From Accumulibacter sp. (lineage in GTDB: Bacteria; Pseudomonadota; Gammaproteobacteria; Burkholderiales; Rhodocyclaceae): a stretch of 45,820 bases of DNA. The notes under the pieces are model-generated. The model worked only from the letters and a program-made list of their open reading frames with translations, did no database searches and had not been told where the DNA came from. Of this stretch, positions 8,661 through 21,211 are shown piece after piece (the first letter of the stretch is position 1; the number at the start of each line of letters is the position of its first letter). The position numbers and the translations under genes were made by a program. The DNA lies in NCBI GenBank assembly GCA_016789495.1, contig JAEUOJ010000028.1, positions 1 to 45,820 of the forward strand. The letters are read 5' to 3'.

Positions 8661-9098
8661 TCAAGCGCCGAAGGCCTGCGCGTCGAGGATTACCGCCGCG
8701 CGGCCCTCGAGCAGGCCGTCGACGCCATGGTGGACCGCAAAGCGGTAAAGAATGCTGCGATCGCCCCCCAGGCACTCGGCGGTGATCACCAACTCGCCGG
8801 GGAGATCGTCGAGGCGAGCCACATGCAGGGTGACCGCGCGGACGCTGGTCAGATAGCCCTGCCGCGGCGGATCGTCATGACCGGCCAGCAGCGCGCCATG
8901 CACCGCCATCGCCTGCGCGGCGTATTCGATGCCACAAGCGGCACCGAGACGGCCGTCGGCGCGCAAGGGATTATCGGCCGCCACATGGCTGCGGGCGACA
9001 CAACGAATGGTTGTCGGCGACCAATCGACGACGGAATCGAGCAGGCACATCGTTCCCTGATGCGGGATATGCGCGGCGATCCAGTCGCGGTCTAGCAT
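8661..9098 (-). CDS. ApeP-type 3-hydroxyacyl-ACP dehydratase (hotdog)
   Basis: 145 residues. The start WIAAHIPHQGTMCLLDSVVDW and the central helix IEYAAQAMAVHGALLAG are those of the ApeP subfamily of hotdog-fold dehydratases found in aryl polyene clusters; the His in IPHQG is the likely catalytic base. It would dehydrate 3-hydroxyacyl-ACP during polyene chain growth, probably as a heterodimer with the other small hotdog protein (17093-17392), as known for ApeI/ApeP. It is the last gene of the 15-gene operon, and its start overlaps the upstream KS-like gene's stop by 7 bp. The family is clear; the actual substrate is inferred from context. Confidence 0.85.
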   Translation of the reverse strand: MLDRDWIAAHIPHQGTMCLLDSVVDWSPTTIRCVARSHVAADNPLRADGRLGAACGIEYAAQAMAVHGALLAGHDDPPRQGYLTSVRAVTLHVARLDDLPGELVITAECLGGDRSILYRFAVHHGVDGLLEGRAAVILDAQAFGA

Positions 9099-9895
9099 GG
9101 TTCGCAGTCGATCGCCAGCTGCAGGGGGGGCAGGTAGTCGATGACCGTCGCTGTCACTCGCCGCTCGGCCAAGGCTTGCATCAGCGGCAGGCTACGCATG
9201 GCCGGAATGCTCAGCCGCAGCTTTTCCAGGTTGTCGTCAGCCAGCCGGGCGGCTGGCTGGTCGCTGAGTCGCACCGTCATTCGCGCCAACGATCGGGGGC
9301 CGGGGATCGGCGAGAGCAACATTGCCACGCCGCCGCAATCGGGAATCGGCCGTTTGTGGAACAGCGGTTCGGGGTATTGGCTGTCGTAAGCGACGAGCAG
9401 GACCGGCTGACCGTCGACCCGCAGTTGCGCCAGCGCGTCGAGCAGTCCGGCGCCGAAACTGGCGTCGTAAGCGCTGAGCACCTGGCAGGGGGTCATTGCC
9501 TTGACGGCGATGCTCCAATAACCAGCGGCGGCGTTATGCACCGAATTGTGGAAGCGGGTCGGCGAAATCCGCCGGTCGTCGGTGGCCAGTTGTTCGCACA
9601 AGGCGTGACAATTTTGACCGTCGGCACCCGACGAGCTGAAGACCGTGGCCAGCGTACCCGGATCGGCGTCACTCTGGCCGCAGGCTTCGAGACCGAGAGC
9701 CAGCACCAGCTTGACGATGGGACTCGCCCGCCGGCGTTCGGCCGCCGGCAGCAGCGACGGCACCGGCAGCTGCGAAGGCGCGGTGACATAGGATTGATCG
9801 CCGCGCAAGATCGACACGGCGGTCGGCCAATCGCTCATTCCGGGAGCGAGCAGACCGACGCCATCGATCCAGGCAGTGAGCACGGACGAGTTCAT
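9092..9895 (-). CDS. Beta-ketoacyl synthase-like chain-length factor (ApeC type)
   Basis: 267 residues from the ATG that overlaps the previous stop as ATGA. It belongs to the short N-terminal ketoacyl-synthase-like group (PF13723): an opening WIDGVGLLAPG, then IVKLVLALGLEA, SSSGADGQNCHALCEQL, and the family hallmark FHNSVHNAAAGYWSIA. It lacks the C-terminal thiolase half with the His/Lys pair, and no Cys sits at the usual nucleophile position (SAYDASFGAGLLDAL there). It is therefore probably catalytically silent and pairs with the neighbouring active KS (9892-11085) to set chain length, like ApeO-ApeC. The dimer assignment is by family knowledge and adjacency. Confidence 0.85.
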   Translation of the reverse strand: MNSSVLTAWIDGVGLLAPGMSDWPTAVSILRGDQSYVTAPSQLPVPSLLPAAERRRASPIVKLVLALGLEACGQSDADPGTLATVFSSSGADGQNCHALCEQLATDDRRISPTRFHNSVHNAAAGYWSIAVKAMTPCQVLSAYDASFGAGLLDALAQLRVDGQPVLLVAYDSQYPEPLFHKRPIPDCGGVAMLLSPIPGPRSLARMTVRLSDQPAARLADDNLEKLRLSIPAMRSLPLMQALAERRVTATVIDYLPPLQLAIDCEPC

Positions 9896-11085
9896 GAGGC
9901 GACTCCAAAAACTAGGCTGCAATTGCTGCCGCCAAAACCGAAGGAATTGCTCAGCACGCGGCGCAGCTCGGCCTGACGACTGGTCAACTGGTAATTGATC
10001 GGGATCGTCGGGTCGCGACTGCCAGTGTGCGGGCTACCCGGAATTAAGCCGTTGGCCAGTGCCAGCAGGCAGATCAACGCTTCGACCCCACCCGCGGCAC
10101 CGAGAGTGTGCCCGGTGGCGCCCTTGGTCGAACTGCACGGCACTTGGTCGCCGAACAGCGCCGCCACGGCGAGTCCTTCGGTGGCATCGTTGGCCGGCGT
10201 CGCCGTGCCGTGCAGATTGATATAGTCGATCTCCGCCGCCGACACGCCGGCCGAACGCAATGCCGCCGCCATCGCCAACTGCGCGCCCAGGCCTTCGGGA
10301 TGCGGCGACGACATGTGATGCGCGTCGCTGCTTTCGCCGTAGCCCAGGAACAGCAGGCTGCCAGCGGGTGGCGACACCGGCGTCCTTTCGAGCAGCGCGA
10401 AAGCGGCGCCTTCGGCGACCGACAGGCCATTGCGCGCCGAGTCGTACGGTCGGCAAGGATCGCGCGAGGTCAGCTCGAGCGAGGCGAAACCGTAAAGTGT
10501 CGTCAGGCAGAGGCTATCGACGCCACCAACCAGCGCTGCGTCGATGACGTCGCAGGCGATCAGCCGGGCGGCGGCGGCAAACGTTTTGGCCGCCGACGAA
10601 CAGGCGGTGGACACCACCATCGCCGGTCCTTCGAGGGCGCAACGCCGACGGACGAACTCGCCGAGCGAAAAGCCGTTATGAGTCGTGCGATAGTTGAAAT
10701 CGTCGGGCAGGGCGCCGGTTTGTGGGTCTCGCCGGCGATACGCCAGTTCGGTCTGCAGGATTCCCGAGGTGCTGGTCCCCAGGAAGACGCCGATCCGACG
10801 GGCCCCATACCGATCGCTGGCCTGGCGAACCCGGCCGGCGAAATCGTCGGCTTCAAGCGCCAGTAACGCCAGGCGGTTGTTGCGACAATCGTAATCCGCC
10901 AGGCCGTCCGGCATCGTCTGCCGGTCAACGTCGGCGACTTCGCCGGCCCAGGTGTCGATGACGACACTTTCGAAGGTGCAGCGACGCAGACCGCTATCCC
11001 CGGCGCGCAGGCCGGCGAGAGTCGGCGCCAGACCGCGGCCGAGCGACGTGCTCAGCGTAAAGCTGGAAACGAGCAAGGGCGTCAC
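9892..11085 (-). CDS. Beta-ketoacyl-ACP synthase (ApeO-like KS)
   Basis: 397 residues starting at GTG 11085 with GGAG about 8 bp upstream. The complete KS catalytic set is present: Cys162 in STACSSAAKTF, His291 in LHGTATPAND, and Lys320/His325 in SSTKGATGHTLGAAG. It would elongate ACP-bound acyl chains with malonyl units by decarboxylative Claisen condensation. It forms a pair with the chain-length-factor gene that overlaps its 3' end (ATGA). The 46-bp gap separating it from the methyltransferase gene is the longest space in the operon. It is distinct from the second KS at 19713, which is more FabF-like. Confidence 0.92.
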   Translation of the reverse strand: MTPLLVSSFTLSTSLGRGLAPTLAGLRAGDSGLRRCTFESVVIDTWAGEVADVDRQTMPDGLADYDCRNNRLALLALEADDFAGRVRQASDRYGARRIGVFLGTSTSGILQTELAYRRRDPQTGALPDDFNYRTTHNGFSLGEFVRRRCALEGPAMVVSTACSSAAKTFAAAARLIACDVIDAALVGGVDSLCLTTLYGFASLELTSRDPCRPYDSARNGLSVAEGAAFALLERTPVSPPAGSLLFLGYGESSDAHHMSSPHPEGLGAQLAMAAALRSAGVSAAEIDYINLHGTATPANDATEGLAVAALFGDQVPCSSTKGATGHTLGAAGGVEALICLLALANGLIPGSPHTGSRDPTIPINYQLTSRQAELRRVLSNSFGFGGSNCSLVFGVAS

Positions 11086-11131
11086 GGATGGGTCTCCAAG
11101 GGATCAACGACGGCACATATTAAAACGGAAG

Positions 11132-11854
11132 TCATGGCGCTGGCACCCGGCAGACCAGCATCACGTTGGCGAACGGCTTGCCTTCGCTCATCGGCGTCGG
11201 AGTGACCTGAAATCCCAGCGACTCGAGTTGGCTGAGCCACCCACGGAGCGGACGCCCGTAAAGCCGCGGCAGACGGTGACCGCGAGCAAAGATCACCGCC
11301 TGATCGATGGCGATGCACAGGTGATAAGGCAGTCCCGCGTCGGCGTCCCCGACGCGGGTCAGGAACAGGCCACCCGGCGGCAGCGCCTGACGAATGCGAT
11401 GCAAAACCTCGTTCTGCTGCTGGATGTCGATGTAATGCAAGGCATCGAGAATGGTGACCACTTCGACCTGACCGAAATCGACCGCGCGCATGTCGCCCAC
11501 ACGGACCTCGACCTGCGGCTGCGTGGCGAAAGCGCGCGCCGCCCGCTCGACATCGCGCGGCATCAATTCGTAACCGCGCAGACTCGACGCTTTCGGCGGC
11601 GCGGGCCAGTCGCCCGGCCACTGGCCGTTTTCGTAAAGCCGCCGCGCCGCCAGCAACCAGGCGAACAGACTGCCCTGTCCGCAACCGAGATCGAGAAACC
11701 GGCCTTCGGCGGGGAAAATGCCGCGTTTGAGCACCTCGCGGAACAAACAATCACTGCCGAGTTTGCCGCGCGCGTAGTGATACGGGAAACGACCGGCGGC
11801 GCGAAATGGCTGGCTGGCCTCATCGAGCAAACGGGCGAGGAAAGCGGCGCTCAT
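11132..11854 (-). CDS. Class I SAM-dependent methyltransferase in the polyene operon
   Basis: 240 residues from ATG 11854 (overlapping the deacetylase stop as ATGA). SAM-binding motif I is FLDLGCGQGSLFAWLLAA; motif II-like VRVGDMRAVDFG and post-motif VVTILDALHYIDIQQQ follow, then RIRQALPPGGLFLTRVGD. The N-terminal ~35 residues (YHYARGKLGSDCLFREVL) are typical of methyltransferases found in aryl polyene clusters. In known aryl polyenes the aryl head carries a methyl group, so modification of the head or chain is the natural guess, but the acceptor cannot be read from sequence. Confidence 0.85.
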   Translation of the reverse strand: MSAAFLARLLDEASQPFRAAGRFPYHYARGKLGSDCLFREVLKRGIFPAEGRFLDLGCGQGSLFAWLLAARRLYENGQWPGDWPAPPKASSLRGYELMPRDVERAARAFATQPQVEVRVGDMRAVDFGQVEVVTILDALHYIDIQQQNEVLHRIRQALPPGGLFLTRVGDADAGLPYHLCIAIDQAVIFARGHRLPRLYGRPLRGWLSQLESLGFQVTPTPMSEGKPFANVMLVCRVPAP

Positions 11855-12651
11855 GTCAGCGCGGCCGCCAGCGTCACCGGCCGCAAGTTCTCGTCGCGCA
11901 ACGTTTGCAGCAGCCACGGCAACACTTCGACGATCACCGCCACGCCGCGCGGGGTGCGCGCGGCGTGGCCGTCGTGCATCAACAGAATAGCGCCGGGCGC
12001 CAGATTGCGACGCAGGCGTTGGTAAACCCGCTGTGGGTCGCCTTGCAGGCTGTCGAGCGAGCGATGGGTCCAGGAGGCCAGTCGCAAGCCGAGCTTGCGC
12101 AACACCGGATCGAGCAGCGGGTTGCGCAGACCGGCGGTCGGCCGAAAAAACTGCGGGGTCTGGCCGGTGATGTCGGCGAGCGTCGCTTGCGCGGCGGCGA
12201 GGTCGGCGTGGATCCGCCGCGGACCGAAGGTGGCGAAGGCCCAGGAATGCGAATCGCCGTGATTCTCGACGCGGTGTCCACGGGCAACGATTTCACGGCA
12301 CAGCGCCGGCGCCTGTCGCGCCCGCCGGCCGATACAGAAAAATGTGGCGCGGGCAGCGGCGGCGTCGAGCAGATCCAGAACCCGCGGCGTCACTTCAGGA
12401 TCGGGACCGTCGTCGATGGTCAGCGCCACTTCGCGGCGTTGTCGAGCAGCCAGCGGCAAGCGGTTGAGGTTGGGGCCGAGCAGCGTGCTGCGTGGCAGCA
12501 TCCCCGCGGCGCCGAGCAGCAGGTGGTTGGCGCCGACGGCGCTGAGGGCCAACGGCCATTCCGCCGGCACCGCCCAGGCGCCGATGGCGGCGACGGCGTG
12601 CGTGGCCACCGAGAGATGAACGGTATAACGGGAATTCCAGGTGAAAGACAT
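11851..12651 (-). CDS. NodB-type polysaccharide deacetylase with N-terminal membrane segment
   Basis: 266 residues. The N-terminus has two hydrophobic stretches (about 12-30 and 33-52), probably a membrane anchor. The NodB homology domain follows: TIDDGPD (Asp80, Asp81), ATFFCIGRRA, then the metal pair in ENHGDSHS (His131, His135), FFRPTAGLRNP, and the C-terminal ILLMHDGH. All metal ligands (D-H-H) and the catalytic Asp are present, so it should be active. Enzymes of this fold remove N- or O-acyl groups from glycans or related substrates. It lies inside the lipid operon, 5 bp after the hydrolase and overlapping the methyltransferase, so it should act on the same product or on its glycan acceptor. 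That role is inference. Confidence 0.88.
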   Translation of the reverse strand: MSFTWNSRYTVHLSVATHAVAAIGAWAVPAEWPLALSAVGANHLLLGAAGMLPRSTLLGPNLNRLPLAARQRREVALTIDDGPDPEVTPRVLDLLDAAAARATFFCIGRRARQAPALCREIVARGHRVENHGDSHSWAFATFGPRRIHADLAAAQATLADITGQTPQFFRPTAGLRNPLLDPVLRKLGLRLASWTHRSLDSLQGDPQRVYQRLRRNLAPGAILLMHDGHAARTPRGVAVIVEVLPWLLQTLRDENLRPVTLAAALT

Positions 12652-12656
12652 CGGCC

Positions 12657-13289
12657 TCAGGCGGTAAAAACCGGACTGGCGAGGAAATTGTGCCACGACC
12701 GGCGCCAGACCGCCCAATCGTGCCCCCCGTCGACCACTTGCCGGTCGGCGGCGGGAAAACAGTCGGCGAGACGCGCCATGCCGTCGGCGAAACGGTCGGC
12801 GCGGCCATAACCGATGAACACCGGCAAATCCGCCGGCGGTTGGCGTAACCAATGCCAGACGCGGAATTCGGGGTCGCGCATCTGCTCGGCCGACGGTCGC
12901 CAACCGGCCAGCCCGCCCGCATCGGCAATGGCCCTGGCGGTCAATCGGCTGCCAGGATAAGGCGACAGCAGACACAAGCCGTCGATCTCGCCGGGAGTGT
13001 CGGCGCAGTGACACAGCGCCAACAATCCGCCCAAGGAAATGCCGGCCAGCCAGATTCTGCCGATGCCCCGCTGGCGCGCGGGCACCAGGATCTGGTTGCG
13101 CAACACCGCTAGGGCGTCGGCATTGGCGATGCTGGCCAGATCGAAGTCGGCGGCAAACAGTTCCAGCGACGGTCGAGACGCCGCCGCCAAGTCCTGAAAG
13201 CCGTTGGCGGCGAAATCGGCCGCCGCGATGTAGGCGCCAGGCAACAGAACGATCAAGGTCGTCGCCGTCCCCTTCGGCTGGACGGTCAT
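12657..13289 (-). CDS. Small alpha/beta hydrolase (serine esterase/thioesterase-like)
   Basis: 210 residues. The ATG at 13289 overlaps the exporter's stop (ATGA). The nucleophile elbow is GISLGG with Ser85; a core strand IVLLPGAY forms the oxyanion region, Asp in GYGRADRF and His in GGHDWAVW complete a plausible triad. The fold is that of small esterases and acyl thioesterases. In the operon it could release or trim acyl chains, taking the place of the hotdog thioesterase (ApeK) that many aryl polyene clusters have and this one does not. No signal peptide is visible, so it is presumably cytoplasmic. Its substrate is unknown. Confidence 0.8.
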   Translation of the reverse strand: MTVQPKGTATTLIVLLPGAYIAAADFAANGFQDLAAASRPSLELFAADFDLASIANADALAVLRNQILVPARQRGIGRIWLAGISLGGLLALCHCADTPGEIDGLCLLSPYPGSRLTARAIADAGGLAGWRPSAEQMRDPEFRVWHWLRQPPADLPVFIGYGRADRFADGMARLADCFPAADRQVVDGGHDWAVWRRSWHNFLASPVFTA

Positions 13290-15619
13290 CGTCGCGCTCC
13301 CCCACTGGCAAAAACGGCGGCAAAAAGCAGCGCCAACATCGCGCCGGGGCCGACGGTGACGCCGAGCGCGCGCAGCACCGGCACCTGCGACAGACCGAGA
13401 GTGCCGAAGCCGATGGTCGTACATACGCAGGCGATGACCATCGAGGCGATGGTCCGCGGTTCAAACGCCAGCCGACCGCGCAGACGATCGAAAAACAGCG
13501 CGTAGTTCGAGCCGACGGCGACGATCAGCAACAAGCCGACCAGATGCAGCAACTGCAAGCGCACCCCGGCCAGATGCAGGCCGGCGACGACGATCAGAAC
13601 CGCCAGCAACAGTGGCGCCAACACCTCGAGCAGTCGGCGCGGCGAACGCAAAGTCACCGCCAACAGGCCGACGATCGCCACCAGCCCGGCCAACGACAGC
13701 CCCAGGGCTTCGTGAAGATAGCTGCGGTAGATTTGATCCACTTCCGCTTTCATGTCCACCAGCAGAGCGGCCGAGCCAGCCAGTCCGGCGCGCAGCGCCG
13801 CGCCGTCGATCTCGCTGTCGGCGCCCGCCGGCGGACGCAGGGGCAACAGTACGCTCCAGCCGCCGTCGCGGCGCAGCAGCAGGCTGTCGACCATCAAGGC
13901 CAGACTGGTGCCGGCCAGTGATTGCGGACCGATCAGCGGCGCGGCGCGAGCGGCATCGATTTCGCGCAGAAATGGATCGAGCTTGTCCGCCGACAGGGGG
14001 GCATCGCGCAAAGCCAACGGCAGCCGCGCCCGCAGTTGCTCGCTCGACGGCAAGCTGGCCTGGCGGGCGCGCTGAGTCGCTTCGCTGGGCAAGAAACGCG
14101 CCGGGTTGTCGTAGCCGCCGATCACGCCGGCGTGACGCAGACGATCCAGCGAGGCCCCGAGGCGCTCGGCGCCTCGCAGCGCCTGTTCGCGATCGCTGCC
14201 GCTGACCACCACCAGCCAGCGGCTGCCTCCGGCGTCGAGATCGGCGCGCAACAGTCCGTCTACGGCGACATCCTCGGCGCGGGCGGTGCTCAATGCGGAC
14301 AGTTCATTACTCCACAACGCGCCGCGGTCGGCGATCAACAGCATTGCCGCGGCGAAGGCGATCAGCAGCACCGGCCAACGCCAGATCGGCAGGCGCCGCA
14401 GCACGCGCGCGCACGCCGCGCCTAGCCCGCGCAGATCGCGGGGCGGCGCCTCGGGCAACAATTGCGGCAGCGCGAAGCGGGTGACCAGCGCGGCAACCAG
14501 CAGCCCGCTCAGTGAATACAGCCCGAGCTGCGCCAGCCCGGGAAAGCCCGAAAAAAGCAGCACCGCGAAGCCGCACACAGAAGTCATCACGCCCAGACGG
14601 ATCGTCGGCCAGAAATCGCGTCGCCAATCAGCGGCGCTGCTACGGTCGGCCTGCACAAAGTAATAGATCGAATAATCGACCGCTTCGCCGATCAACGCCG
14701 AACCGAAGCCGACGGTGATCCCGAAAACGCCGCCATGCACCAGGCTGACGGCGACGATGCCCGCCAGCGCGCCGCTGGCCACCGGCAGCATGCCGATCAC
14801 CGTCAGTTTGAACGAGCGGTAGACGAACAACAGCAGGCAGAAAATGGTCAGCGTGCTGATCGACGACAGCCGTGTCACCTCGGCTTTGATCGTGTCGCGG
14901 GCATGCACCGCGAAAACACCGGGGCCGGCGACCTGCAGCCGCGCCTCGCCCGCGCCGCTGGCCGCCCGCGATCGTTCGAAAGCCTGTTCGATGGTCGCCA
15001 GGGCCGCCGCCTGTCCGTCGGTGTCGGTCCCCGAGGCGACGGTTTGCACCAGCAACACCGCACGTTCTCCGTCACGCGACACCCACACACCATCGCGACT
15101 GTTTGGCTGTCGGCTGGCATCGAATCCGCTCAACAGACCGATCAGTTCGCCGGTCGGGTCGCGGGTCAACAATGGCTTGACCAACAGGCCAACCGGCGAG
15201 GCGAGCAGGTCGATGCTTTCAGCGATCGCCGTGCGCAATCCGTCCACCGCAAAACGTTCCGGTGTCACCGTCGGACTGAGCAGATATCGGTGGCGAAAGA
15301 GAAACTCACGGTCGGCATCCAAGCCTTGCGCCTCGCCGTTGCGGACGGCGACGAAACGGCCGCTGTCGTCGAGCCGGCGTCGCAGGTCTCGGGACAGCGC
15401 GGCCCGCTGCGTGGCGTCACCGCCGCCGACGGCGACCATCAGCAGGCGGTTCAACGCACCGTCCCTGAGTTGATCGACCAGCACCCGTTGTTCGGCGCTT
15501 GGTTGTGTCGGCAAGAAAAACGACATGTCAGTGATGAAACGGCTGTGCCAGACGACACCCAGGCCAGCGAGCATCGCCAGCAACCACAACAGCAGGGTGC
15601 GCCAGGCCGCCGGACTCAC
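13286..15619 (-). CDS. MMPL/RND-family lipid exporter (ApeM-like)
   Basis: 777 residues from GTG 15619, which overlaps the LolA-like stop as GTGA; longer upstream frames run into that gene and are rejected. The protein has two similar halves: a first helix (about 5-24), a large periplasmic loop, five or six clustered helices (about 255-400), another helix (about 415-435), a second periplasmic loop, then a final helix cluster (about 630-777). Typical RND/MMPL motifs are seen in the helix bundles, for example GSALIGEAVDYSIYYF and VAVGSNYALFFDRLRG. Proteins of this group export lipid-like products across the inner membrane. Paired with the LolA-like carrier, it probably hands the product to a periplasmic route. 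Confidence 0.92.
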   Translation of the reverse strand: MSPAAWRTLLLWLLAMLAGLGVVWHSRFITDMSFFLPTQPSAEQRVLVDQLRDGALNRLLMVAVGGGDATQRAALSRDLRRRLDDSGRFVAVRNGEAQGLDADREFLFRHRYLLSPTVTPERFAVDGLRTAIAESIDLLASPVGLLVKPLLTRDPTGELIGLLSGFDASRQPNSRDGVWVSRDGERAVLLVQTVASGTDTDGQAAALATIEQAFERSRAASGAGEARLQVAGPGVFAVHARDTIKAEVTRLSSISTLTIFCLLLFVYRSFKLTVIGMLPVASGALAGIVAVSLVHGGVFGITVGFGSALIGEAVDYSIYYFVQADRSSAADWRRDFWPTIRLGVMTSVCGFAVLLFSGFPGLAQLGLYSLSGLLVAALVTRFALPQLLPEAPPRDLRGLGAACARVLRRLPIWRWPVLLIAFAAAMLLIADRGALWSNELSALSTARAEDVAVDGLLRADLDAGGSRWLVVVSGSDREQALRGAERLGASLDRLRHAGVIGGYDNPARFLPSEATQRARQASLPSSEQLRARLPLALRDAPLSADKLDPFLREIDAARAAPLIGPQSLAGTSLALMVDSLLLRRDGGWSVLLPLRPPAGADSEIDGAALRAGLAGSAALLVDMKAEVDQIYRSYLHEALGLSLAGLVAIVGLLAVTLRSPRRLLEVLAPLLLAVLIVVAGLHLAGVRLQLLHLVGLLLIVAVGSNYALFFDRLRGRLAFEPRTIASMVIACVCTTIGFGTLGLSQVPVLRALGVTVGPGAMLALLFAAVFASGGARR

Positions 15620-16185
15620 TTGTCGGGCAGCGGCTGGATGGCCAGCAGCGAGCGGTCGCCGTCGGCCTGCAGATAGTCGATGCTCAGCACGCGGTTGCGC
15701 TGGCCCTTGATGATGATCCGCTGCACCAGATTGGCGATCGCCTGGTCGCTGGGCAGCAAGGTCAAGGTCCATTGTTCGCGGTCACCGGCCAGATGCAGCC
15801 CATAATGCTTTTCGAGCGTTGTCCGGTCGCCGGTCAAGGCGGCGCGCGCGCTGGCGACGAAGGCCTGCGCCAACGGCTGTCCGGCGAGATCGATGGTCGA
15901 CTGCCGGTCGCCACGCTCGATGGTCAGCCGGTCCTTGTCCAGGCGCAAGGTTTCCGGACGCGGCGAGAGCGTCCGCTTTTCGAGGCGGTCGGGGGCCACG
16001 AAACTCATCTCGCCGCTGGCGACCAGCGGTTTGTCGAGCACGGCCAGATAGCGGGTTTCGACGAAGCGCGCCCGGCCGCTCCTGGTGCGTGCCAAGGTGT
16101 CCATCAACTGCGACACATCCCAGGCCGCCAACACCGGCAGCGACAATGACCACAGGGCCCACAGTCCGACAAGCAAGCGTCTCAT
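15616..16185 (-). CDS. LolA-like periplasmic outer-membrane carrier protein (ApeL-like)
   Basis: 189 residues with a clear Sec signal peptide (MRRLLVGLWALWSL, hydrophobic core, then a VLA-A cleavage site near residue 21). The mature part has LolA-fold features: VSQLMDTLARTRSGRARFVE, GEMSFVAPDRLEKRT, DRLTIERG. LolA-like proteins are half-barrel periplasmic chaperones that ferry acylated molecules. In aryl polyene clusters such a protein is encoded beside the MMPL exporter and is thought to carry the lipid to the outer membrane. Its start and stop overlap both neighbours by 4 bp. Confidence 0.88.
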   Translation of the reverse strand: MRRLLVGLWALWSLSLPVLAAWDVSQLMDTLARTRSGRARFVETRYLAVLDKPLVASGEMSFVAPDRLEKRTLSPRPETLRLDKDRLTIERGDRQSTIDLAGQPLAQAFVASARAALTGDRTTLEKHYGLHLAGDREQWTLTLLPSDQAIANLVQRIIIKGQRNRVLSIDYLQADGDRSLLAIQPLPDK

Positions 16186-17096
16186 TTCTCCGGATGCCAA
16201 AAATCGAAAAAATTGAACCAATTATAGGGCGCCTGCCGGCAATGATGCTCCAGAAGGGCCACGTAGCGGGCTTGCGCCTCGCGCATCGCCTGCTGGCGTC
16301 CTCCGGGGCCGATGGTCGAGAAATCAACCAGCGGCTCGAAGTGCACCCGGTAACGGTTGCCACCGAGATACAGTCCGGTCATGAATAGCACTGGCCGGCG
16401 CAACATCGCCGCCAGCCGGAAAGGCCCGCTCGGAAACGGCGCCGGCTCACCGAGAAAAGGCAACGGCACCGTTGCTTCGTTGTTCAGCCCGCGGTCGGCG
16501 AGAATGCCGACCAGGTAGCCCTGTGAAAGCTTCTCCTGGACGATGAGCATCGAGTCCAGCCGTCCCAGGCCGATGATGTCCTGACGCGCCGCCGGATTGA
16601 TCGCTTCGAGCGTAGCGTTGAGTTTACGGGCATTTTCCTCGTACATCAGCATCGCCACTTTCAGACCGGCCAGACCGCGACCGATCGCGCGCATGACTTC
16701 GAAACTGCCGAGGTGCCCGCCGATCAACAGTGCGCCGCCGGGTTCGGCGAGCGCGGCGTGCACCGCGTCGGCGCCTTCGATGGTAATGTCGAACAGGTCG
16801 AAACGATCATTGAGCAGGTACACCCGGTCGTGGATGGTGCTGGCGAACGACAGCACGTGGCGGTAACCGTCGTTCCAGGTCGGTTCGCGACCGAGCGCGC
16901 GCCGCAGGTAATTCCGGCCGGCGCGGCGCGCGTCGGGCGAGAACAAGGTGAAATAAAGCGCGATGCCATAGAGCACCAGGCGGCCGACCCGCCGTCCGAG
17001 GTGCAGCGAAATCCAGACCATCAGCCGCAGAATCGACCGGTTGCTGCGCTCCTGCCGAGCCATCCAGTCGGCGGTAGACCGCTGGTCGCGGTTCAT
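16182..17096 (-). CDS. LpxL/HtrB-like lysophospholipid acyltransferase
   Basis: 304 residues from ATG 17096 (ATGA overlap with the dehydratase gene). The LpxL-family features are there: an N-terminal amphipathic/hydrophobic stretch (about 25-55), the HX4E catalytic motif HLGSFE, GILADRGLNNEATVPLPFLGEPAPFP, and a C-terminal PYNWFNFFDFWHP that matches lipid A late acyltransferases. It should transfer an acyl chain from an ACP to a lipid acceptor at the inner-membrane face. In the operon it is the candidate for fixing the polyene-like chain to its lipid anchor. It is a paralogue, not the housekeeping LpxL, judging by context. Confidence 0.88.
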   Translation of the reverse strand: MNRDQRSTADWMARQERSNRSILRLMVWISLHLGRRVGRLVLYGIALYFTLFSPDARRAGRNYLRRALGREPTWNDGYRHVLSFASTIHDRVYLLNDRFDLFDITIEGADAVHAALAEPGGALLIGGHLGSFEVMRAIGRGLAGLKVAMLMYEENARKLNATLEAINPAARQDIIGLGRLDSMLIVQEKLSQGYLVGILADRGLNNEATVPLPFLGEPAPFPSGPFRLAAMLRRPVLFMTGLYLGGNRYRVHFEPLVDFSTIGPGGRQQAMREAQARYVALLEHHCRQAPYNWFNFFDFWHPEK

Positions 17097-17392
17097 GGGA
17101 CGGGCTGCAGGCGGCCACTGGCCACCTCCACTCCGTCGTCGTCCAGGATGCTGAAAGCCCAGCCCGCCGCAGGGGTCGCCACCAAATGGTAATGCAAGGT
17201 GTACCCCGGACCGACCGGGCGAAAGAACTTGGCCTGAGCGATCTGCCAGCGCAGGCCGGCGGCGCCGTGACACTGCTCGGCAAAGCGGATCGCCCGATCG
17301 AGCAGCAACACCCCGGGAACGATCGGTCGGCCGGGGAAATGACCGGCGAAAACCGGCTCATCGGCGGCGAACCGCCAGACAAACTCAGCCAT
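17093..17392 (-). CDS. ApeI-like hotdog dehydratase (thioester dehydrase)
   Basis: 99 residues. The ATG at 17392 lies 8 bp inside the ligase gene's 3' end; longer in-frame extensions are shadows of the ligase. The short hotdog fold contains FAGHFPGRPIVPGVLLLDRA (His and the following FPG/PG motif of FabZ-type dehydratases) and AKFFRPVGPG. It is homologous to ApeI, the dehydratase that partners with ApeP to form polyene double bonds. Its genomic place between ligase and acyltransferase is typical of aryl polyene loci. Confidence 0.85.
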   Translation of the reverse strand: MAEFVWRFAADEPVFAGHFPGRPIVPGVLLLDRAIRFAEQCHGAAGLRWQIAQAKFFRPVGPGYTLHYHLVATPAAGWAFSILDDDGVEVASGRLQPVP

Positions 17393-18746
17393 TACCGTCG
17401 CGGCGGTTGCGCAAGGTGTCGTACAGCGCCTGCAGCGATTCACGCGGCAGCTTGCTACTGGCGCTGCGCGGCAGCGCGTCGACCTTGAACAACGGCCGCG
17501 GCAGGAAAACGGCGTCGATCTGCTCGCGCAAGGCGGCCAGCAACTGCCGTTCGTCGATTCCCGGTGCGACGACGAAGGCGCATAGGCGGACAATGGCCTC
17601 GTCGCTCGCCGTCGGCTGGAAAAACGTGCCATCAACCACACCTGGAATGGCCAGCAGCCGTTGGTTGAGGTAAGCCAAGGAACTGCGTTTGCCGGCGATG
17701 CCGATCTGGTCGGTGTGCCGGTCGCCGAGCAGAAAACGGCCATCCGGCAAGATTGAAACTTCGTCGCTGAGCGCCACCTGCCCCGGCACGTGTCCGCCCG
17801 AGGCGAGCACCCGATCCCCATCTGCCGTCAGATGAACCCCGTCGAACGGCAACCACACCGGGTCGACCGTCGGCTGGCGCGAAGCCAGTTGGCCACTCTC
17901 GGTACAACCGTAAATCTCGTACAACGGTGCCGCCAGTTGCCGTTCCGCCTCTGCCGCCAGTTCGCGGGGTAACGGTGCGGTCGCCGAAAGCACGCGATCA
18001 ATGGCCGGCAGCTCGATTCCCGCCGCCAGCAGGGTGCGCAGATGAAACGGTGTGCTGACCAACAAGCGCGGTCGCGGCAATCGATTCAATGCGGCGACGA
18101 TATCCAGCGGATAAAACGGCTTGCCGGACCAGAACGGCGCGTTGCCGTGCATCGCCAGCAGCACGGTAGACTCGAAGCCATACATGTGCTGCGGCGGCAC
18201 GGTGCCGACGATGGCGTGACGCGGTCCGTCGAACAGTCCGAGTCGGCTGGCCTCGGCACGCCCGTTGATCACCAGCGAACCCCACGACTTGCCATGCGGC
18301 AGCGGCCGCCCGGTCGACCCGGAGGTGAACACCAGGATCGCCAGCTGCCCGGCAGGAATCGACGGGATCGCGGTTGGCGGCTCCCCCCGCCCCGACCGAG
18401 CGCCCACCGACCGTTGCGGGAAATCGAAGCGCGGCAGATTAGCGGTGGCAAATTCACAGTCGCAGAGGCAGAACACGTCGGCGTAATCACGCTGGATCTG
18501 ACGCAGCGTTTCCACCGACTGGGAGGAGGGCTGCAGACTGACGCGCCCGGTGAGCAGGCCGGCGGCAAGGCCGACGGTGAAGCGGTAGCGATCCTGGCAC
18601 AAATTGAGAAAATGGTTGCCAGCTGGCAAACAGGCGGCCAATTCGCCGACATCGGTCAGAAATGAGCGCACGTCTACCGGTCCGGCGGGGGTATAGGCAA
18701 ACACCTCATCGAGGCTGGCGTGCCCGAGCAACGGCGCGTGCTTCAT
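17385..18746 (-). CDS. Acyl-AMP ligase (ApeH-like, starter-acid activating)
   Basis: 453 residues, shorter than usual ANL enzymes (500-550) but like ApeH. The adenylation motifs are in order: FTSGSTGRPLPHGKSW (about 140-155), a YGCTESG motif around 280, a GDRHTDQIGIAGKRSSL hinge region, and near the C-terminus SASSKLPRESL with the catalytic Lys432. It should activate a carboxylic acid starter (4-hydroxybenzoate in characterised aryl polyenes) as the acyl-AMP and load it onto an ACP of this operon. The actual starter is not deducible here. The stop is 8 bp inside the dehydratase gene, and the start overlaps the membrane-protein stop by 4 bp. Confidence 0.87.
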   Translation of the reverse strand: MKHAPLLGHASLDEVFAYTPAGPVDVRSFLTDVGELAACLPAGNHFLNLCQDRYRFTVGLAAGLLTGRVSLQPSSQSVETLRQIQRDYADVFCLCDCEFATANLPRFDFPQRSVGARSGRGEPPTAIPSIPAGQLAILVFTSGSTGRPLPHGKSWGSLVINGRAEASRLGLFDGPRHAIVGTVPPQHMYGFESTVLLAMHGNAPFWSGKPFYPLDIVAALNRLPRPRLLVSTPFHLRTLLAAGIELPAIDRVLSATAPLPRELAAEAERQLAAPLYEIYGCTESGQLASRQPTVDPVWLPFDGVHLTADGDRVLASGGHVPGQVALSDEVSILPDGRFLLGDRHTDQIGIAGKRSSLAYLNQRLLAIPGVVDGTFFQPTASDEAIVRLCAFVVAPGIDERQLLAALREQIDAVFLPRPLFKVDALPRSASSKLPRESLQALYDTLRNRRDGNG

Positions 18747-19405
18747 CGGCGGGCGGCGAACACCCGTCCGTCACGAATCGCCGTGCGATAGGCGCGGACA
18801 GTGTCGGCAATACTGGTTCGGTCGGCGGGCGGCAAGGCAAACTGGCGTACTGCAAGTTCGGCGGCGCACATCAGAAAAACCAGCGGGATACCCAGCACGT
18901 TGGCAAAAAACGACCAGCTTTCCGCCGAGGCCAATAAATAGAGCAGCGTGGATACCGCGGCGATGATGAAAAAATATGCCGTCCAGGCCAGGGTCACTTG
19001 CCGGGTGTAACGCAATTGTTCGGCCGACAACACGCCATAGTGCGCCAAACGCGCCATGTGTGTCACCAGCGAATCGTCGTTCCCGAGCAGGGAGCGTCCG
19101 AACAACACCCCCAAGGCCAGGTGCATGCCCAGATGTTGCCAGTAGTACAGCAACGCGACGTTGTTGCGCAGCACCGGCCAGAAGTGGGCGAGCAATCCAC
19201 CGACGACGACGACGACCGCCAGCGCCCACGCCGGCCGGAGAAAGCGCCAGAGCAAAGGCAACACCGCCAGCGCCGGAACGACGGCGACAGCGACCGCCAG
19301 ATCCGATCCACCACCTCGCGAACTCGCCTGATGAGCCAGTGCCGCCCAGCCAACGATCCCTACGGCCACGCCACACAGGCGCAACACGTTGGCCAGGGTC
19401 GACAC
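18743..19405 (-). CDS. COG4648-family membrane protein (ApeG-like)
   Basis: 220 residues from GTG 19405, directly abutting the ACP stop codon. Six hydrophobic stretches are visible (about 8-26, 33-52, 60-75, 85-102, 145-165, 168-188). The conserved segment YYWQHLGMHLALGVLFGRSL and the following DDSLVTHMARLAHYGVL are typical of the uncharacterised COG4648 membrane proteins found in aryl polyene and related clusters. Its job in the pathway is unknown; an association with the acyltransferase or the exporter is a guess. It is encoded between ACP and ligase as in known loci. Confidence 0.82.
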   Translation of the reverse strand: MSTLANVLRLCGVAVGIVGWAALAHQASSRGGGSDLAVAVAVVPALAVLPLLWRFLRPAWALAVVVVVGGLLAHFWPVLRNNVALLYYWQHLGMHLALGVLFGRSLLGNDDSLVTHMARLAHYGVLSAEQLRYTRQVTLAWTAYFFIIAAVSTLLYLLASAESWSFFANVLGIPLVFLMCAAELAVRQFALPPADRTSIADTVRAYRTAIRDGRVFAARR

Positions 19406-19690
19406 TCAGGTCGTCCGATTGCTGGCGATATGCGTCGCCAGACTGCGTAGCGAAGTAAAAATGCGCACATTGTCGTCATTGTCGGAACGTAACTGAAAAC
19501 CATACCGTTTCGAGACCACTAGCGCGACTTCGAGGATATCGATCGAATCCAACCCCAGTCCGTCGCCGAACAGCGGCGCATCGGGGGCGATTTCGGCGGG
19601 GTCGAGATCGAGATTGAGCGCCGACACCATCAGTTGAGCAACTTCCTGGAGCAAGGCGTCGTCGGCTTGCGGAGCGATTTCTTGGGTCAT
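19406..19690 (-). CDS. Acyl carrier protein, second copy in the operon
   Basis: 94 residues starting at ATG 19690. The phosphopantetheine site is LGLDSIDILEVAL with Ser49, in the four-helix ACP layout; the sequence before it (LDLDPAEIAPDAPLFGDG) is acidic as expected. It is preceded by a 22-bp gap after the KS gene and abuts the membrane-protein gene. The operon contains two ACPs, as do E. coli-type aryl polyene loci (ApeE/ApeF); one may carry the starter-derived chain and the other malonyl extension units. The division of labour is not readable from sequence. Confidence 0.92.
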   Translation of the reverse strand: MTQEIAPQADDALLQEVAQLMVSALNLDLDPAEIAPDAPLFGDGLGLDSIDILEVALVVSKRYGFQLRSDNDDNVRIFTSLRSLATHIASNRTT

Positions 19691-19712
19691 GACGTGGAAT
19701 CCGACAAAATAT

Positions 19713-20966
19713 TCATCGCGCACAGGCGCGGAAAGCAAGGACGGCATTGCTGCCGCCGAAAGCGAAGGAACTCGATAACGCGGCACGCAGCGGCTGGCCC
19801 GTACGCGCCTGCCTGACATGGTCGACGCCGACACACTCCGCATCCAGATCACGCAAATGGGCGGTCGGCGGAATCGCCTGTTCACGCAGCGCCAGGACGG
19901 TGATCAGCGCCTCGAGTGCCCCGGCGGCGCCAAGCAAATGACCATGCGCGCCTTTGGTGCCGCTGACCGGCAAGCGGGCGGCTGACTCGCCAAAAACCGT
20001 CAGCAAAGCCTGACACTCGACCGGGTCGCCTTCGGCGGTCGCCGTGCCATGCGCGTTGACATAATCGATCTCGGCTGGAGACAGGCCCGCATCGGCCAGC
20101 GCCAGACGCAGCGCACGCACCTGGCCGTCCTTGTTCGGTCGCACCAGGTGATCGCGGTCGCAACTGCTGCCGTAACCGACCAGTTCCGCGTGGATGCGCG
20201 CGCCGCGGTCGAGGGCATGTTGCCAGTTCTCCAGGACCAGCGCCGCGCCGCCTTCGCCAAGGACCAGACCGCCGCGATCGGCGCTGAACGGCCGACACGC
20301 CGTGGCCGCGGTCTGTTCGTCGGCGTGCGCCAACACCCGCAACGCTTCCCAGGCGCGGAGTATGCTATAAGCCTGCGGCGCCTCCGAACCGCCGGCGACC
20401 ATCACCGTCGCCTCGCCGCTACGCACCCGCCAGAACGCATCACCCAGGGCCATCGCCGAGGAGGCGCAGGCCACCGCATGGCAGGCGCTCGGCCCGCCCA
20501 AACCAAGCTGGATCGAGATATGGGCATTGGCCGCGTTGGTCATTCCCTGAACCACGGACAACGGCGACAGCCGCGGGCGTCCGTTCAGCCAAAGGTCGCG
20601 GTACCCTCTGTCCATGGCCAGTACGCCGCCCAAGGCGGTGCCCCAGGCAACGCCCCATTGCTCGCGGTTCTCGTCGGCGGTCGGCCGCATCGACAAACCG
20701 GCGTCGCGCCAGGCGTCGAGCGCTGCCGCCAAACCGAACTGGGCGAAGCGGTCCATCGTCGTCAGCAAGGCTTTGCCGAACAGCGTCTGGGGATCGAAAG
20801 CCGGCAAACTGGCAAAGGGAATGGCGATCGGCCGCGGCACATCGTCGGTATGCAAAAAACGGACCGCTGATTCGCCGGCCAGCAAGCGCCGGAAAAAGTC
20901 GTCAATGCCGCCGCCGAACGGGCTGACCAGACCCAAGCCGGTAACCGCGACCCGTTGAGCGCTCAT
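19713..20966 (-). CDS. Beta-ketoacyl-ACP synthase II-like (FabF/ApeR-like KS)
   Basis: 417 residues, FabF-like length. The catalytic residues are all present: Cys167 in VACASSAMALGD, His306 in NAHGTATAEGDP, and Lys338/His343 in GTKGAHGHLLGAAG; the C-terminal SSSFAFGGSNAVLAF is standard. It would catalyse the first or general condensation in the pathway. It follows the first ACP by 5 bp and is the second gene of the operon. It differs from the KS at 9892, so the operon has two active KS enzymes and one silent one, which is the aryl polyene set (ApeO, ApeR and ApeC). Confidence 0.93.
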   Translation of the reverse strand: MSAQRVAVTGLGLVSPFGGGIDDFFRRLLAGESAVRFLHTDDVPRPIAIPFASLPAFDPQTLFGKALLTTMDRFAQFGLAAALDAWRDAGLSMRPTADENREQWGVAWGTALGGVLAMDRGYRDLWLNGRPRLSPLSVVQGMTNAANAHISIQLGLGGPSACHAVACASSAMALGDAFWRVRSGEATVMVAGGSEAPQAYSILRAWEALRVLAHADEQTAATACRPFSADRGGLVLGEGGAALVLENWQHALDRGARIHAELVGYGSSCDRDHLVRPNKDGQVRALRLALADAGLSPAEIDYVNAHGTATAEGDPVECQALLTVFGESAARLPVSGTKGAHGHLLGAAGALEALITVLALREQAIPPTAHLRDLDAECVGVDHVRQARTGQPLRAALSSSFAFGGSNAVLAFRACAR

Positions 20967-20971
20967 TCGGC

Positions 20972-21211
20972 TCAGTTCGCTTGCGCGCTACGCAAGTCGT
21001 CCATCAAGGTGACCATTTCGCCGACGGTCCGTGGCGGCGTCATTCCTTTGCTCAAGGTGATGCCGAAACGCTCTTCGAACTCGAACATCAGCTCGAGGAT
21101 CATCAGCGAATCGACACCGAGCTCTTCGAGCACCGCTTCGGAAACGATCGCCTCGGCGCCGACGCCCAGACGGTCGTGCAAAAATTCGCGAATCAGGGAT
21201 AGGGAGTCCAT
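20972..21211 (-). CDS. Acyl carrier protein, first gene of the operon
   Basis: 79 residues, ordinary ACP size. Ser35 in LGVDSLMILELMFEFEE is the phosphopantetheine attachment site, and the acidic helix II (EELGVDSLMILELMFEFEERF) is typical. No clear Shine-Dalgarno is visible before ATG 21211; a TAAAAT hexamer lies about 10 bp upstream (reverse complement of 21221-21226), which could be a -10 element giving a very short leader. It starts the run of 15 minus-strand genes, 134 bp after the 3' end of the co-oriented tRNA-Arg gene. Confidence 0.92.
   Translation of the reverse strand: MDSLSLIREFLHDRLGVGAEAIVSEAVLEELGVDSLMILELMFEFEERFGITLSKGMTPPRTVGEMVTLMDDLRSAQAN

Follow-up and report, generated by a model that had tools for sequence, protein, structure and literature searches.

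A fifteen-gene operon of Candidatus Accumulibacter as the probable larger locus of an arcuflavin/xanthomonadin-type aryl-polyene pathway with a displaced ketoreductase

What product can be expected from an aryl-polyene-type operon that appears to have neither a ketoreductase (KR) nor a glycosyltransferase (GT)? The question is raised by fifteen genes at positions 8661-21211 of a 45,820-nucleotide stretch of Candidatus Accumulibacter DNA (JAEUOJ010000028.1; the whole stretch is called the window below). Accumulibacter is a phosphorus-removing sludge bacterium. The host assembly (G000) consists of 3.26 Mb in 203 contigs and is 87.6% complete, and the contig studied is its C166. An earlier note had described the operon as aryl-polyene-like, with a non-standard gene set in which no ketoreductase was seen, and had proposed a membrane-bound polyene or hydroxy-acyl lipid whose attachment or finishing chemistry is different. 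Our analysis supports the aryl-polyene type and the probable membrane-bound product. We conclude that the operon is very probably the larger locus of an arcuflavin/xanthomonadin-type aryl-polyene pathway. It is a known kind of yellow outer-membrane pigment cluster, and what is new is a family member with a displaced KR.

The fifteen open genes fill exactly 8661-21211 on the minus strand and are transcribed from 21211 down. Neighbouring genes abut or overlap at ten of the 14 junctions, and gaps of 5, 5, 22 and 46 bases separate the rest. Coordinates, Pfam and motifs agree with the single run of domains described earlier, and Pfam backs most of the gene names. In the 2014 arcuflavin paper, Table 1 gives, for arcM-arcV in Azoarcus sp. 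BH72, the order methyltransferase, PS-deacetylase, an unnamed gene, exporter, lolA, acyltransferase, dehydratase, AMP ligase, a second unnamed gene and acyl carrier protein (ACP) (PMC3949708). The window follows this order, including the PS-deacetylase, from 11132 to 19690. Its genes are an arcM-like S-adenosylmethionine methyltransferase (11132..11854; Methyltransf_25, 2e-10), an arcN-like NodB-type deacetylase (11851..12651), a small alpha/beta hydrolase that by position is probably arcO (12657..13289), an arcP-like MMPL/RND exporter (13286..15619; PF03176, 9.6e-14), an arcQ-like LolA carrier (15616..16185; PF19574, LolA_3, 5.8e-22), an arcR-like LpxL-type acyltransferase (16182..17096; PF03279, Lip_A, 5.4e-12; HLGSFE motif), an ApeI/arcS-like hotdog dehydratase (17093..17392), an ApeH/ArcT-like aryl-acid AMP ligase (17385..18746; PF00501, 3.8e-15), an ApeG-like COG4648-like membrane protein that by position is probably arcU (18743..19405) and the arcV-like ACP2 (19406..19690, with a chosen start codon; PF00550, 1.2e-7). 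The COG4648-like protein gave no Pfam match and was recognised solely by its position and by homologues in the same slot of relatives. Since this order had been published with its PS-deacetylase, the gene set of the window is not non-standard.

Insertions in arcK or arcT gave a colourless Azoarcus strain, and the arcA-arcL and arcM-arcX loci of BH72 are unlinked (PMC3949708). The published table places in the other arc locus a ketosynthase (KS), a KS-N-terminal protein, a dehydratase, a reductase, an antiporter, a glycosyltransferase, an acyltransferase, an MltA-interacting protein (MipA), a chorismatase, a halogenase and further genes (PMC3949708). The window differs in that a trio of KS, chain-length-factor-like (CLF) partner and dehydratase follows the methyltransferase in one operon, which is headed by a pair of ACP1 (20972..21211; PF00550, 1.6e-9; DSL motif) and KS1, and in that the KR and antiporter of the host lie on another contig.

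The same order was sought in other genomes by a scan of genome contigs with a deacetylase alignment, from which the best 80 of 364 loci were taken; gene-detection models were built from these 80 NodB-anchored loci. All fifteen genes in window order were found in 29 of them, among others in Hydrogenophaga, Dechloromonas, Azonexus and other Accumulibacter. Of the other 51 loci, 17 were under 20.5 kb and 34 were longer with at least one gene not found (the methyltransferase in 18, the hydrolase in 13, ApeG in 9 and ACP1 in 8). The same-order relatives have a KR after the last dehydratase, whereas the operon of the window does not. Among the NodB-anchored loci, 66 extend over 900 bases past this dehydratase, and in every one of them a KR directly follows it. 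A second set was anchored on the exporter, with which 399 genomes of the order, which we take to be Burkholderiales in GTDB, were searched. Seventy-eight matched at 1e-60, including the window's own. The 77 stretches besides the window were taken, and six with less than 2.5 kb after the exporter were dropped, leaving 71; five of the 77 are the same loci as five of the 80. A KR was present in 51 of the 71 stretches; in 41 of 53, the distance from the dehydratase to a KR downstream was at most 800 bases.

Two Accumulibacter loci are split in a manner that resembles the Azoarcus arrangement: L057 runs from ACP1 to the methyltransferase with no KS2 in its stretch, and L038 runs from KS2 to the KR with the rest missing from it. 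In 18 of the 80 loci (L062, L063, L107 and others) an extra protein of about 390 residues, lipoprotein-like by eye, lies between deacetylase and KS2.

Where, then, is the KR of the host? No KR-like stretch was found in the window in a search to E 1e-3, and a search to E 1e-5 found no arc-type GT, PlsC, chorismatase or antiporter in it; as the earlier note had stated, neither KR nor GT is near the operon within the window. That note had also suggested looking for a KR elsewhere in the genome, and one was found. Five sister genomes (G003, G007, G009, G012 and G026) have a 239-residue KR directly after the last dehydratase, and its orthologue in the host lies outside the operon contig, at C61:38163-38879. 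It is 77% identical to the cluster KR of G026 and 76-79% identical across the five sister KRs. It is convergent with an arcG-like antiporter, itself 83% identical to that of G009. Of 28 Accumulibacter genomes searched, six have a KR of at least 76% identity, and these are the same six that have a CLF of at least 66%; six further genomes gave a KR-like match of 52-62% at the E-value used. Judged by this orthology, the KR that seemed to be missing is a displaced gene, and a lack of ketoreduction is not supported.

Against solved structures the C61 KR had its highest scores with 4iiu (212.9 bits), 7czc (212.7) and 7caw (206.9), with 6nrp at 206.4. 7CAW and the identical 6NRP represent ApeQ of Acinetobacter baumannii, whose FabG (7CAZ) scored 161.6 bits. 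The lid of the C61 KR is two residues shorter in the alignment than that of the host's own FabG, in agreement with the two to three residues reported for ApeQ (PMC8041823). A dedicated KR, ApeQ-type by degree of likeness, is thus present in the genome outside the operon. Housekeeping FabG as a stand-in was dropped since the C61 KR exists and FabG is reported to be unable to replace ApeQ (PMC8041823). Leu185 was dropped as a mark of ApeQ: at the presumed site, read by eye from the alignment, the host's own FabG carries Leu as well instead of the contrasting Phe.

The remaining genes of the second arc locus were followed in the sister genomes. In G007, G009, G012 and G026 the order is halogenase-like flavoprotein, chorismatase, MipA, PlsC, GT2 and antiporter; in G009, a single contig, about 0.7 Mb separate this locus and the operon. 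G003 has PlsC and GT2, and the chorismatase and flavoprotein are not in the stretch read. Host contig C62 carries a radical SAM protein, the halogenase-like flavoprotein, the chorismatase and MipA. Both a XanB2-type chorismatase and a halogenase-like gene are thus present on C62, the former scoring 239.5 bits with TIGR04444, below the cut-off of 325. The MipA match stops 51 bases short of the end of C62, where PlsC and GT2 would be expected next. The arcD-like acyltransferase and arcE-like glycosyltransferase occur in all five sisters with the cluster and were not found in G000, where contig C62 ends at that point. The end of C62 is the simplest reason that they were not found, loss being the alternative. 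A false gap is thereby cleared: the reductase is displaced, and the place expected for the glycosyltransferase coincides with the end of a contig. The B12-binding radical SAM protein, named by eye, precedes the halogenase-like gene in four Accumulibacter genomes including the host (L163:6135-7736, L164, L165, L167) and was found in one of the 80 NodB-anchored loci.

The condensing enzymes also point to an aryl-polyene pathway. KS1 (19713..20966; ACAS, HGT and GH) and KS2 (9892..11085; TACSS, HGT and GH) both carry catalytic motifs. KS2 is an ApeO/ArcK-type KS with the catalytic Cys-His-His; its best solved match is 6qsp_A with 261 bits, compared with 173 bits for the best FabF, and it scores above the cut-off of NF006618. 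The ApeC/ArcJ-type CLF-like partner (9092..9895; PF13723, 6.8e-28) has no HGT motif, and 7f28_A and 6qsp_B were its sole solved matches up to E 1. The best solved matches of the two proteins are therefore ApeO and ApeC (6QSP, 7F28). KS1 scored 299 bits with the best FabF and 218 with A. baumannii ApeR (7f27), so that by the bit-score test it is FabF-like and not an ApeR. This typing relies on bit scores and not on a KS tree, since four rows of the tree were two sequences entered twice (the KS1 model took the KS2 protein in L126 and L133) and named ApeO and ApeR proteins were not among its rows; the E. coli-type stretches supplied to it yielded no KS.

Both dehydratases of the ApeI and ApeP types are present, though the ApeI-type match is weak. 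The gene at 17093..17392 (PF07977, 2.6e-6) is FabA-like; it matched an ApeI-like model at 0.0038, below cut-off, and 6qsr_A weakly, while FabZ scored best. The last dehydratase (8661..9098; ApeP/ArcI-type) gave a profile match to 6qsr_B at 1e-12. We take 6QSR to be the structure of the ApeI-ApeP pair. Alone, the last dehydratase has no Pfam match; PF22817 (ApeP-like) matches four of eight aligned members, the window member not among them.

With gene content, order, orthology and motifs as observed, a pathway can be proposed from the chemistry of characterised relatives. The chorismatase on C62 would supply hydroxybenzoate, which the AMP ligase would load onto an ACP. KS2 and its CLF partner would extend the chain with malonyl units, and the displaced KR together with the ApeI- and ApeP-type dehydratases would convert each unit to a double bond. 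The methyltransferase, and perhaps the halogenase-like enzyme, would decorate the ring. Acyltransferases would attach the polyene acid to a lipid, and the MMPL exporter and LolA-like carrier would bring the product to the outer membrane. That a sludge bacterium known for phosphorus removal carries such a pigment pathway may interest workers in that field.

A resorcinol partner for the polyene is doubtful and a resorcinol ester is not supported, since only one KSIII-type gene (PF08541, which darB presumably carries) was found in the host genome. Arcuflavin itself is a dialkylresorcinol hybrid, and the dar locus of Azoarcus includes a KS and an ACP (darJ, darC) (PMC3949708). Flexirubin, a Bacteroidetes pigment, is esterified to a resorcinol. 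The LolA-like protein of the window matches the flexirubin LolA2 model and the C61 KR matches the FlxB model, both below cut-off.

Several points weigh against the arcuflavin/xanthomonadin-type assignment. BH72 was compared through its published gene table; arcO and arcU are unnamed there, so that their match to the hydrolase and the COG4648-like protein is by position. The KR is not adjacent to the operon in the host. Its likeness to ApeQ is graded, since scores of up to 200.4 bits (2et6) and 185.3 bits (2ph3, a 3-oxoacyl-ACP reductase) were reached with other reductases, and its best NCBIfam model bears the FabG name. Searches of the 87.6% complete host assembly recovered neither PlsC, for which there was only a PlsC-like match of 28%, nor the arc-type GT. 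Finally, we know of no product from Accumulibacter.

The displaced KR and the absence of GT and PlsC orthologues from the assembly could also be read as decay, that is, as a non-functional pathway that has lost GT and PlsC. We consider this very improbable. The KR and all fifteen genes have open frames, every motif that was inspected is present, and the two missing genes would come after MipA, where, as described above, the contig is almost at its end.

It is extremely improbable that the operon is an E. coli-type ape cluster after gene losses and gains. The two types do share ACPs, ApeG/H/I, acyltransferase, LolA, MMPL and the ApeO, ApeC and ApeP types, and PlsC-, GT- and KR-like genes have homologues in E. 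coli-type clusters. The apeA-R cluster of E. coli CFT073 has the core type II polyketide synthase (PKS), exporter and carrier logic in common with the window. It differs in having the ApeK thioesterase, ApeN, the lipoprotein ApeA and ApeR, and its table lists no deacetylase or hydrolase (PMC8253772). In the window KS1 is FabF-like, not ApeR-like, and Pfam scans of the fifteen genes, which left out the rest of the window, showed no thioesterase or DUF3261 protein. Identities of the window proteins are 24-51% to the E. coli-type loci L049-L053 versus 37-80% in same-strand matches of the 80 NodB-anchored loci, although these ranges overlap and the remoter arc-type loci L045-L048 reach only 28-63%. 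As a control we used four E. coli-type clusters whose stretches extend beyond the exporter (L284-L287); L049-L053 end before that stretch, and L288 (G045), without an exporter, is uninformative. All four controls have the different order exporter, KS2, dehydratase, KR and KS, with neither NodB nor hydrolase.

In four other Accumulibacter genomes (G005, G013, G025 and G027; L018, L020, L021, L023, L053, L287) the CLF was matched weakly at 34-38%, the arc-type GT2 at 44-45% and the KR at 52-56%. In G025, the sole neighbourhood read of these, the matches belong to an aryl-polyene locus of the E. coli type; pigment clusters of two types thus seem to occur in the genus.

There is next to no chance that the operon represents a novel pathway without ketoreduction, making a different hydroxy-acyl or keto lipid, and this reading was dropped: the absence of a KR from the window favours it, and the orthologous KR on C61 and the adjacent KR of every NodB-anchored locus with room speak against it.

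What remains of the proposed different finishing chemistry concerns the deacetylase and the hydrolase. Compared with the E. coli type, whose four control clusters lack both, the operon may still have a different finish. The earlier note would have regarded the cluster as ordinary if relatives carried a KR, thioesterase and GT nearby and the two inserted genes only sporadically. The KR is adjacent in relatives and the GT is present in the sisters, while no thioesterase was seen, and the published arc table lists none either (PMC3949708). Among the 71 exporter-anchored stretches, 47 have NodB and 19 the hydrolase after the exporter, so that the former is common and the latter variable. NodB was found in 28 of 29 stretches with an exporter score of at least 1000 bits, in 15 of 19 at 850-1000 bits and in 4 of 23 below; the hydrolase was found in 8 of 29, 11 of 19 and 0 of 23, respectively. 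By these counts NodB marks the nearer branch and the hydrolase varies. Within the order, roughly two in three arc-type exporter loci thus carry the deacetylase as a regular component.

The window NodB (PF01522, Polysacc_deac_1, 6.2e-28) has its catalytic motifs, including HGDSH and FRPTA, and by eye a hydrophobic N-terminal stretch; it falls below every NCBIfam cut-off. The DDGP and HD motifs are present in all 129 rows (80 and 49 loci, some common to both sets). Strict patterns matched the H-motif in 42 and the RP-motif in 51 of the 129, being too narrow for a second NodB subgroup with variant motifs. The hydrolase shows GISLG, GRAD and GHD motifs with Abhydrolase Pfam matches below cut-off. 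In one tentative and rather unlikely scheme, the arcE-like GT2 would produce an N-acetyl amino sugar linked to a lipid, and the membrane-tethered NodB would deacetylate this sugar, whose free amine or hydroxyls would then take the polyene acid; the hydrolase would edit or release misloaded chains in place of a thioesterase. If so, polyene anchoring in the arc branch would differ from that of the E. coli type. The amino-sugar step draws on weak matches, the best named model of the G009 GT2 being polyprenyl-phospho-GalNAc synthase (48.8 bits, cut-off 370), and the occurrence of NodB is not coupled to that of GT from locus to locus. When each was scored at any position of the stretch, 29 of 71 loci had both, 20 NodB only, 8 GT only and 14 neither; an obligate NodB-GT pair was therefore dropped.

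Elsewhere in the host genome, at C59:62831-63574, a ketoacyl synthase domain occurs in an open frame of 2554 residues, which apparently encodes a large PKS-like protein.

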